Shown: positions 3,274-44,523 of the stretch, piece after piece
How positions within the stretch are numbered: position 1 is the first letter of the stretch
Layout: every line of letters starts with the position of its first letter
Source: Candidatus Omnitrophota bacterium
Lineage (GTDB): Bacteria; Omnitrophota; Gorgyraeia; Aquiviventales; Aquiviventaceae
NCBI GenBank assembly: GCA_016209275.1
Contig: JACQWM010000013.1
Coordinates: 1-44,523 of the forward strand
Length of the DNA stretch: 44,523 nt
Direction of reading: 5' to 3'
Position numbers and translations under genes: made by a program
Notes under the pieces: model-generated
The model's input: only the letters and a program-made list of their open reading frames with translations
Told to the model about the DNA's origin: nothing
Databases searched by the model: none

Positions 3274-3302
3274 TCTTATAGAAGTTAAAAAAGTAAAAAC
3301 TC

Positions 3303-3378
3303 CCGATAAAGGCAAACTCACGGTAACGTGAGGGCGCAAAGCTACGGGTCCTCTGAAACGGATCGCCTAGCTGCCGAA
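3303..3378 (+). promoter_or_regulatory. GEMM-I riboswitch, cyclic di-GMP-I type
   Basis: The leader carries the GEMM-I signature in order. GATAAAGGCAAAC begins at 3305. A hairpin CTCACG-GTAA-CGTGAG with a GNRA tetraloop follows, then GGGCGCAAAGC, then a second stem beginning GGGTCC and closing with the conserved 3' piece AGCTGCCGAAG. The GGCAAAC plus CGCAAAGC form matches the cyclic di-GMP class better than the cyclic GMP-AMP variant, which usually has CUAAAC and CGGAAAGC. A terminator (3404-3440) follows before the subtilase start at 3471, which makes transcription termination the likely output. Whether ligand turns the genes on or off cannot be read from the sequence with confidence. Confidence 0.85.
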
Positions 3379-3403
3379 GAGCGACAACGATTTCAGACAG
3401 GAT

Positions 3404-3440
3404 TGCCGAGCTACCGAAGGAGCGGTGGTTCGGCATTTTT
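3404..3440 (+). terminator. rho-independent terminator, riboswitch expression platform
   Basis: GCCGAGCTACCG (3405-3416) pairs with CGGTGGTTCGGC (3423-3434), including two G-U pairs, and is followed by ATTTTT. It sits between the aptamer and the first subtilase, so it is probably the conditional terminator of the riboswitch. Confidence 0.85.
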
Positions 3441-3470
3441 CTTTATAACATTTTAACACGGGAGGCTGGG

Positions 3471-32409: not shown

Positions 32410-32833
32410 GACACCGCAGCCGCCAGGGGCCGATAAGCCGAGTTCTGTTCTCCTTCGCTCCCCAGCTTTCGCAGGGGAGCTTCGGAGCAATGGTCATCCA
32501 TCTGGGCCTTGCCTTGCGGCAGGGCTCTTGCGGCCTACCTCCCTAACCTGTTTGGCGGGCAACCGTATCCCCGCCAGTGATTGCTCACGGCGGGGTGTTA
32601 GGATCTTTGGCCTTGCTCCGCGTAGAGATTGCCGCGTTTCACCTCGGATCTAAAGGCCAGATACCTTGCGGTGTCTGGCCCCATGACGACCCTACTCGTC
32701 TCTGTGGCTCTAATCCGCCCTATTGCTAGAGGAAGGGGGGTTACCCCTTTACGCTGCCCTATGGAGCTCGGACTTTCCTCCCCGCCACGATTCGTGGCGA
32801 GGCGACCATCTAGCCTCTGTCGACTGCGGTGTC
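32410..32833 (-). ncRNA. rnpB: RNase P RNA, bacterial class A
   Basis: About 424 nt. The 5' and 3' ends are set by a P1 helix: GACACCGCAG (32833-32824) pairs exactly with CTGCGGTGTC (32419-32410). The conserved P4 strand GAGGAAAGTCCGAGCTCC, the GAAACGCGGCAA region and the 3' core ACAGAACTCGGCTTATCGG are present. The RNA is the catalytic part of the enzyme that trims tRNA 5' leaders. The 5' end overlaps the stop codon of rnhA, suggesting it is released from a joint transcript. Confidence 0.96.
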
Positions 32834-42996: not shown

Positions 42997-43533
42997 TCAC
43001 GGACAGGCAGCTTTGGGTGCCTGGTCAATGGTCGCAGCCCCTGCCAAGGTAGGATCTGGCGCGACAATCCCAGAGCAGTGGTAAATCAAACCGGCCTCAG
43101 TCACGACAAACGATCGACTTCCTGTACTTGCTGACTGAGGGACCGCTCCGAGTTGATATGTTAGGCCATTGACTCCGGTGAAGGTATACAGATACCCTTG
43201 AACTACCGCGTTCGTCAAGACCCTACAGAACGACGGAGGTCCGAAGTCCGGGTCAGGGCTGACACCAGCGGCACAACCGGCTGGGACCCCGCCGAGCCCG
43301 TACATGCTATTAATAAACGCCGTCCCATCAGGAGCTGGATACGCCTGGTACACCGAGCGGTACATTTCCAGCGAGGAGAGCAGCGCGCGCATGTTGCCGA
43401 TGGCGGCTGACTCATTCGCCGTGGTGCGTCCACGCAACACGTTGGGAATCGCGATCGCGGCCAATAAGGCGATGATAGCCACCACGATCATGATCTCAAC
43501 GAGCGTGAACCCTGCTTTGGTTGCTCGTCTCAT
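42997..43533 (-). CDS. pilA: type IV major pilin-like protein
   Basis: 178 residues from ATG at 43533, with AAGGAG about 7 nt upstream. The class III signal MRRATKAG is cut before Phe9 by prepilin peptidase, and Glu13 is the conserved Glu5. The hydrophobic helix FTLVEIMIVVAIIALLAAIA is standard. The globular part has NVLRGRTTANESAAIGNMRA and four cysteines able to form two disulfides. It could be a pseudopilin of a secretion system, but the pil neighbours favour pilin. Expression is from its own promoter through a GEMM-I-like leader and conditional terminator. Confidence 0.93.
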   Translation of the reverse strand: MRRATKAGFTLVEIMIVVAIIALLAAIAIPNVLRGRTTANESAAIGNMRALLSSLEMYRSVYQAYPAPDGTAFINSMYGLGGVPAGCAAGVSPDPDFGPPSFCRVLTNAVVQGYLYTFTGVNGLTYQLGAVPQSASTGSRSFVVTEAGLIYHCSGIVAPDPTLAGAATIDQAPKAACP

Positions 43534-43594
43534 CGTGATCTCCTTGTTATTTCCCACACAATAAACAATGATAACCCGCCTTCTCTAACTTTCT

Positions 43595-43626
43595 CAATCA
43601 CCCATCACTGAATCACTCAATCACTC
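43595..43626. repeat. AATCACTC octad array in the pilA leader, near the gene
   Basis: Four octads (43595, 43603, 43611, 43619), two of them exact AATCACTC, lie between the terminator and pilA. They are inverted relative to the array at 43733-43764 and could pair with it across the terminator. Confidence 0.85.
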
Positions 43627-43650
43627 TCTTGTCCCCGGAACACCTCCTTC

Positions 43651-43687
43651 CTTAAAATAAACAAGCCACTGCCGCTAGGCAATGGCC
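43651..43687 (-). terminator. rho-independent terminator in the pilA leader
   Basis: GCCATTGCC pairs with GGCAGTGGC around loop TAGC (one G-U pair), followed by TTGTTTATTTT on the minus strand. It lies directly after the riboswitch-like 3' end and before pilA, as in the subtilase leader. Confidence 0.85.
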
Positions 43688-43732
43688 TCAAATCGCTTCC
43701 CAGCGGCAACCCAGCTACCCTGTGAACTACAG

Positions 43733-43764
43733 TGATGAAGTGATTGAGTGAGTAAGTGATTCAG
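43733..43764. repeat. TGATTNAG octad array within the pilA riboswitch P2 loop
   Basis: Four octads (43733, 43741, 43749, 43757) of the form TGA-x-x-x-AG. A related inverted stretch at about 43818-43836 can pair with it to extend the P2 stem, and the array at 43595-43626 is a competing partner. Confidence 0.88.
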
Positions 43765-43878
43765 CAGATCCTCTCCTGCCATGCAGCCTTGAGTCCCGGG
43801 AAGGCTCATTGCTGCTGCTTACTCACCTCACTCGCCTTTCCAACAGGGCCTGTGGCTTTCCGGCCTCGCCTCACGGCG

Positions 43879-43924
43879 TCCGCCACCTTACTTGGCGGAT
43901 CCCCGCCACAGTTCGTTGGCGGGG
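43879..43924. repeat. double CCGCCA/TGGCGG palindrome in the pilA leader
   Basis: CCGCCA (43880-43885) pairs with TGGCGG (43893-43898), and CCCCGCCA (43901-43908) with TGGCGGGG (43917-43924). The first half shares the CCGCCAAG-x-A-xx-GTGGCGG form with the element inside hisH. Confidence 0.85.
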
Positions 43925-43953
43925 AAGTGTGGCTTTATCGCTTGTCATTACTA

Positions 43954-43983
43954 ACTATGCCATATCTCGTTAGGCGGGGTCAA
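43954..43983 (-). promoter_or_regulatory. predicted sigma-70 promoter of pilA
   Basis: On the minus strand, TTGACC (43983-43978, overlapping the TGA stop of the preceding gene) and CATAGT (43959-43954) are 18 bp apart. The predicted start near 43947 falls immediately before the riboswitch-like leader. Confidence 0.6.
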
Positions 43984-44523
43984 GGATTTTCTTTCGCGGC
44001 GCGCAAAGCGTAGGCTAAGTTCGGGTCGCGCCGCTTCGCCTGCCGGAAGGCCTCATCCGCCCCGGCCGCATCGCCTAAGTGCGATCGTGTTTGGCCGAGC
44101 CGGAACCACGCAAATCCCAGCCACGGGCTGCGGGCGACGACCCGCTGATAGGCGGCAGCGGCCTGAGGGACTTGGGCCGCCCGCAGGCATCGCTCGCCTT
44201 GCTCCAACGGAAAGCGGCTGTTCCATGGATCCGATCGTTCAGCGCGTTGCCACAGCGCGATGGTGCGTTGAATGGGAGCTGATGACAGCTCCTGCCATGC
44301 CGCCCTGGCTGCCCAGGCATCAGCCATCGCAAACCTTGCCGTAAGAAGCAATACAAGAGACGCGATGACTGCTGGTAAACTTCTCACAAACCTCACGCGG
44401 CTAGGAGCTAGGAGCTGGGAGCTAGGAGCAACCACAACGGTAGTTCCAGACAAGAGCCCTAAAACGCTCCACCAGAACGGTGCGGTGACCGCCTCATAGA
44501 ATGTCTGCTCAAGCACGCTGTGC
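43980..44523 (-). CDS. C-terminal part of an O-antigen ligase-like membrane protein with TPR tail (5' end cut by window edge)
   Basis: About 180 residues; the frame is open at the right edge (HSVLEQTFYEAV), so the N-terminus lies outside. The visible part begins with the end of a membrane protein: two hydrophobic segments (FWWSVLGLLSG and SLPAVIASLVLLLTARFAM) flank a linker encoded by a GCTAGGA repeat array (APSSQLLAPS). A tetratricopeptide region follows (QAAAAYQRVVARSPWLGFAW; FRLGQTRSHLGDAAGADEAF). This layout fits Wzy/O-antigen ligase-like proteins with periplasmic TPRs, sometimes found near pilin genes as pilin glycosyl ligases. That role is inference. Confidence 0.7.
   Translation of the reverse strand, partial: HSVLEQTFYEAVTAPFWWSVLGLLSGTTVVVAPSSQLLAPSRVRFVRSLPAVIASLVLLLTARFAMADAWAARAAWQELSSAPIQRTIALWQRAERSDPWNSRFPLEQGERCLRAAQVPQAAAAYQRVVARSPWLGFAWFRLGQTRSHLGDAAGADEAFRQAKRRDPNLAYALRAAKENP
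44400..44429. repeat. GCTAGGA heptad array inside the TPR membrane protein
   Basis: GCTAGGA, GCTAGGA, then GCTGGGA and GCTAGGA follow in strict 7-nt register (44400, 44407, 44414, 44421). They encode the linker between two membrane segments. Confidence 0.9.

Follow-up and report, generated by a model that had tools for sequence, protein, structure and literature searches.

The pilA leader of an Omnitrophota bacterium as a probable c-di-GMP class I riboswitch with a twin-hairpin insertion in P2 and a family-specific P3 arm

Introduction

Does the long leader of the type IV pilin gene pilA in this Candidatus Omnitrophota bacterium contain a c-di-GMP riboswitch, and could such an aptamer still act when its conserved pieces lie far apart? 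The window, by which we mean the whole 44,523-nt stretch of DNA analysed, had been given a preliminary description in which a promoter, a GEMM-I-like core, a terminator and pilA followed one another. That order holds on the minus strand, where the features are as follows.

43954-43983, minus strand: sigma70-type promoter, TTGACC-18 nt-CATAGT, with TG before the -10 (read from the sequence)
43697-43946, minus strand: c-di-GMP-I (GEMM-I) aptamer, P1-P2-P3 (Rfam RF03167 and covariance model R1)
43939-43942, minus strand: P1 5' strand AGCG, pairing with CGCU at 43705-43702 (read from the sequence)
43933, minus strand: G, equivalent of Vc2 G20, ligand contact (invariant)
43879-43925, minus strand: 47-nt twin hairpin in the P2 5' strand, TCCCCGCCA-N8-TGGCGGGGA and TCCGCCA-N7-TGGCGGA
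43867-43878, minus strand: P2 cap CGCC-GUGA-GGCG with GNRA tetraloop GUGA (43874-43871), intact beyond the insert
43862, minus strand: C, equivalent of Vc2 C44, interhelical pair with G83 (invariant)
43859, minus strand: A, equivalent of Vc2 A47, ligand contact (invariant)
43720-43845, minus strand: long P3 arm of 126 nt, one irregular hairpin when folded
43796-43802, minus strand: P3 apical loop UUCCCGG (alignment and folding)
43731-43762, minus strand: octad repeats of the TCAATCAC type, 3' side of the P3 arm
43702-43719, minus strand: 3' strand of the aptamer, GGUAGCUGGGUUGCCGCU; it includes the P1 3' strand and the equivalents of G83 (43715) and C92 (43706)
43699-43709, minus strand: candidate antiterminator 5' strand UUGCCGCUGGG, overlapping P1 (3' strand) and the equivalent of C92
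43669-43679, minus strand: candidate antiterminator 3' strand CCUAGCGGCAG, overlapping the terminator loop and 3' arm
43663-43688, minus strand: intrinsic terminator stem-loop, followed by GTTTATTTT
43592-43626, minus strand: second octad array, between terminator and pilA
43000-43533, minus strand: pilA, type IV pilin, ATG at 43533 and AAGGAG at 43545-43540 (Pfam N_methyl)

The promoter block TRTGGCATAGT(T) recurs at the equivalent place in many orthologous leaders. Downstream of pilA, whose product has the N-terminal methylation motif (Pfam N_methyl), come pilM, pilN, pilO and a gene for a secretin. Far 5' of the pilA start, at window 43641-43647, lies a GGAGGUG(A) motif that is found after the terminator in most relatives' leaders and even in L058, a leader without a riboswitch; it could be a standby site or part of a leader ORF. 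A short tandem repeat of the GCTAGGAG type occurs at window 44396-44430, in the region of the upstream ORF for a TPR protein.

Results

Identification of the aptamer

In a permissive cmscan of positions 43500-44100 (601 b), RF03167 (c-di-GMP-I-GGC), a model of the same clan as c-di-GMP-I (RF01051, clan CL00126), matched the minus strand at 43942-43701 over the full model (1-80) with 27.1 bits and an E-value of 3.2e-4, its alignment to the window aptamer containing inserts of 51 and 123 nt. The check suggested earlier, a run of the Rfam GEMM models with large loop insertions allowed, thus gives a match of full extent, with a score below the curated gathering score of 59 bits. The window aptamer scores 13.8 bits in a whole-genome Rfam search, and no match to it was obtained at Rfam gathering thresholds. 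The gathering score is a cut-off that insertions penalise and does not itself describe the structure. Matches to mir-550, sR and similar Rfam families in the pilA leader region were dismissed as chance.

A score so far under gathering would also be expected of a chance resemblance in a repeat-rich leader that contains no riboswitch, a reading to which we give almost no credence. Conservation at the same place across the family and covariation speak against it, and it is refuted by R1, a covariance model made from seven orthologous pilA leaders without P2 inserts and with the window excluded, because this model finds the window aptamer with 71.2 bits and an E-value of 5.5e-20 (84 kb searched). 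Three of the orthologues (L045, L053 and L056) pass the RF01051 gathering threshold themselves, at 42.5-43.8 bits against 35. Judged by these comparisons, the pilA leader carries a genuine c-di-GMP-I (GEMM-I) aptamer that is common to relatives, which bears out the identity first proposed for it.

Of 59 genomes, 42 yielded a PilA relative. The leader precedes pilA in 14 of 19 other loci from Omnitrophota of the same family (L042, L043, L045, L046, L047, L049, L050, L052-L057 and L060), so that the suggested comparison of pilA orthologues came out in its favour; it is truncated in L050, where most of P3 is lost, and no aptamer match was obtained in the remaining five same-family loci (L044, L048, L051, L058 and L059). 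Twelve public motif-scan records with the leader, confirmed by R1, have Omnitrophota or Omnitrophica labels, except for one labelled Planctomycetales. Within the order, 27 of 28 genomes contain some GEMM-I that R1 matches, as do 55 of 117 genomes sampled from the class, and one match from another family lies just 5' of pilA (G031:C2:144350-144461, with pilA at 144024-144209). A tblastn search against plasmids gave no match.

Conserved core, class and ligand

In the Vc2 riboswitch, G20, A47 and C92 contact the ligand and C44-G83 is a universally conserved interhelical pair (PMC4744006). The equivalents of all five bases are invariant in the 14 leaders of alignment A2, a core alignment from which inserts were left out. 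P1, P2, P3 and the terminator are paired in 97.4% of cells, compared with 24-50% in slid-strand controls, a percentage that leans towards structure because the inserts were trimmed out of A2 manually. The stronger part of the covariation evidence is the double-sided changes: seven pairs have both partners altered, where shuffles give 1.4 (0/500). Among 13 distinct leaders P1 is 84.6% paired, while the terminator helix is 100% paired and has both sides changed at two pairs.

Although RF03167 gives the best Rfam score, assignment to its GGC variant was rejected, as its consensus has G at position 47 and all 14 leaders, the window included (43859), have A; the binding site therefore looks like that of the ordinary class. 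Most members of the cGAMP (GEMM-Ib) class have A at position 20. The pilA leaders do not fit this class, the base at 43933 being an invariant G. All four of the GGDEF domains that could be read in the same genome retain the GD of the substrate site, which fits synthesis of c-di-GMP and not of cGAMP. The predicted ligand of the pilA leader is c-di-GMP.

The P2 insertion and mobile palindromes

The two CCGCCA palindromes that had been placed near the first hairpin are real and exact, and they lie inside the P2 stem, on its 5' strand: the 47-nt insert consists of two exact CCGCCA/TGGCGG hairpins between CACACU and CGCC-GUGA-GGCG. When it is taken out, 40 of 43 positions are identical to insert-free relatives. 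By this comparison the twin hairpin is a true insertion, drawn from a mobile palindrome family, and it leaves the GNRA-capped end of P2 and all of the ligand-contact bases in place.

At the same point of P2, L043 has four hairpins, some of them nested, and L047 has two; on the other P2 strand, inserts lie between the C44 and G45 equivalents in L042, L046, L049 and L060. P2 has received comparable hairpins in other genera too, and genus g20 offers a clear case, with an insert in L043 and none in L050. The PilA tree on which the P2 insertions were to be counted was mostly without resolution. A twin hairpin also lies in the J1/2 strand of L155, a GEMM-I that does not precede pilA. The idea that the GEMM-I periphery tolerates inserted hairpins is strengthened by these cases, since L042, L043, L046, L047, L049, L060 and L155 are all likewise inserted.

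Pattern searches found the twin hairpin (CCGCCA-N5..9-TGGCGG-N-TCCGCCA-N5..9-TGGCGG) in 9 of 28 genomes of the order, with at least 17 copies in one of them (G019) and none for the reversed-pattern control. Another type of palindrome, CAGATATCGNNNNCGATATCTG, is present 33 times in the bacterium's own genome. Five are in P3 loops of GEMM-I aptamers, where 0.2-0.4 would be expected if, as we assume, the aptamers amount to about 1.8 kb and intergenic DNA to 150-250 kb; two of the five may represent one duplicated locus (C29).

In the same genome, GATATC palindromes occupy GEMM-I P3 loops at C2:17708, C14:19983, C29:9872, C29:12897 and C56:7022, and GATATC-N-GATATC has 170 matches genome-wide, with none for the reversed control. 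The P3 loops of the GEMM-I loci L030 (C42:11931-12072) and L034 (C14:20173-20314) share an extended palindromic block, CCTGCTGG...CCAGCAGG, and L030 is closely followed by a twin CCGCCA hairpin. In the window itself, the RNase P RNA (32418-32821) has a CCCCGCC...GGCGGGG hairpin in a variable region that resembles those of the pilA leader.

The P3 arm

The larger of the two supposed insertions, about 120 nt of octad repeats in the P2 loop, is neither in P2 nor an insertion. The segment is the P3 arm. Of 14 leaders, 13 have an arm of 53-130 nt (126 nt for the window copy), the exception being L049 with 16 nt, and the long arm is therefore regarded as ancestral; the octads account for only some 32 nt on its 3' side (43762-43731). 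Thus, of the large insertions thought to have been accepted at peripheral loops, the 47-nt element stands, within the P2 stem, and the longer one does not. The apical UUCCCGG is present in 10 of the 13 long P3 arms compared, the window included; it is varied in L055 and L060 and absent from L052. On alignment, the long arm with this tip is inherited family-wide.

Octad-side CTTACTCAC pairs with GTGAGTAAG (43826-43818) inside the arm. The octads are also complementary to the second array (22 nt, 91%), and the two arrays flank the terminator. Octad arrays elsewhere in the genome occur as opposed pairs too, for example at C4:158339-158429. UUCCC of the P3 tip might form a kissing or pseudoknot contact with GGGAG at the P3 base, where the window copy reads GGAA; these bases show little variation.

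A broader proposal is that in this Omnitrophota family short mobile hairpins repeatedly enter c-di-GMP-I helices and loops without destroying them, adding RNA domains, and that the conserved, UUCCCGG-tipped P3 arm serves as another module, for sensing or for binding a protein, through which the pilA leader would integrate c-di-GMP with another signal. We hold this as a speculation with rather poor odds.

Terminator, antiterminator and direction of switching

The candidate antiterminator would pair UUGCCGCUGGG with CCUAGCGGCAG over 11 bp, with a duplex energy of -21.6 kcal/mol that is as low in 9 of 500 shuffles; cognate pairing is barely better than non-cognate (-20.5 vs -19.1). The helix gives no covariation signal either way in the aligned leaders. 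The terminator-loop bases GC, which the antiterminator needs and the terminator leaves unpaired, are kept in 11/13 and 13/13 leaders.

Aptamer (43946-43697) and terminator (43688-43663) do not overlap and can coexist. The same holds for Cd1, a c-di-GMP OFF switch before a flagellar gene of Clostridioides difficile, whereas in the Geobacter pilM riboswitch the two overlap (PMC9262584). From this arrangement we infer that c-di-GMP would lower pilA transcription. With c-di-GMP bound, P1 (AGCG/CGCU) and the C92 equivalent would be held in the aptamer, the terminator would form and pilA would not be transcribed; with the ligand absent, the terminator segment CCUAGCGGCAG would instead be taken up by UUGCCGCUGGG of the aptamer 3' strand, and RNA polymerase would read through. 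By analogy, then, switching is probably OFF, through exchange between antiterminator and terminator.

The opposite direction, an ON switch in which bound ligand prevents termination as in Geobacter pilM, draws on other GEMM-I of this genome, such as that at window 3302-3460, in which one arm of the terminator is formed by a second copy of the aptamer 3' strand, a layout like that of pilM. The pilA terminator is built without the aptamer 3' strand and coexists with the aptamer as in Cd1, and we consider an ON switch improbable here.

The genome (G000) is unusually dense in these elements, with about 20 GEMM-I above the cut-off and at least 20 loci (L001-L020 / L021-L040) in 1.8 Mb. Several consist of one 5' half followed by two complete 3' halves (GGAUNGCCgrGyyrCCGAA), namely window 3302-3460, L023, L024, L025, L027, L028, L032 and L036, and the same form occurs in other genera (L148, L149 and L161). 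In most, the second 3' half doubles as the 5' arm of a terminator, which suggests a strand-exchange platform with two 3' halves in competition for a single 5' half.

Fold energy and the state of the window copy

Insert-free relatives fold with aptamer and terminator together at 0-4.4 kcal/mol above the MFE, and in L045, L054, L055, L056 and L057 this fold is the MFE or within 1 kcal/mol of it. For the window the computed cost is 12.4 kcal/mol, and two other P2-inserted leaders, L047 (15.9) and L060 (9.8), are similarly expensive. These values would suit a decayed riboswitch whose aptamer was broken by the recent twin-hairpin insertion, leaving a constitutive terminator/antiterminator leader; losses do exist in the family, in the five loci without an aptamer and in L050. 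Against decay, the P2-inserted L042, L043 and L046 cost just 2.8-4.0 kcal/mol (2.8-6.0 with L049), and the window copy has the P1-P2-P3 architecture with every contact base unchanged and all core pairs kept except the outermost P1 pair. A U-G to U-A change beside the insert also preserves its pair. Since nearest-neighbour energies leave tertiary contacts and the ligand out of account and put a penalty on multiloops, the 12.4 kcal/mol is a warning and not a refutation. We regard decay as the most serious of the alternatives, though an unlikely one, and infer that the window copy may still be functional despite its insert.

Discussion

We consider it likely that a c-di-GMP class I riboswitch in the pilA leader controls transcription termination, probably as an OFF switch, with a P3 arm common to the family and a twin-hairpin insert in P2. 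What distinguishes this genuine c-di-GMP-I leader is the well-located insertion of a mobile hairpin and the family-specific P3 arm. The finding would connect expression of type IV pili with c-di-GMP in a phylum that is large and uncultured; our literature searches found no paper joining Omnitrophota and riboswitch, nor any that combined Omnitrophota with the phrase cyclic di-GMP. The relatives also form a natural series, in which one aptamer has 0, 1, 2 or more hairpins at two defined points of P2, and the tolerance of a riboswitch helix to interruption is therefore directly testable.

Compared with known systems, the pilA leaders resemble RF01051 (GEMM-I) in having P1, P2 and P3, a GNRA loop on P2, the G20, A47 and C92 contacts, the C44-G83 pair and a terminator and pilin gene downstream. 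They differ in that the first P2 pair is flipped to C-G (GCC..GG), the P3 arm reaches 53-130 nt with its apical UUCCCGG, and P2 has hairpin inserts in 7 of 14 aligned leaders. The likeness to RF03167 is one of score, as no other Rfam model scores higher for the window aptamer or for most of its relatives, and stops at position 47. Rickettsia palindromic elements are one example of dispersed palindromic repeats. The Omnitrophota hairpins share with dispersed bacterial palindromic and stem-loop repeats (e.g., PMC2267715) a short, scattered form and conserved stems, but those described here lie inside a riboswitch helix. The closest parallel in mechanism is Cd1, where the antiterminator likewise uses the aptamer 3' strand and the strand topology is the same, while the gene is different and the available part of the account describes no long P3 arm or inserts (PMC9262584).
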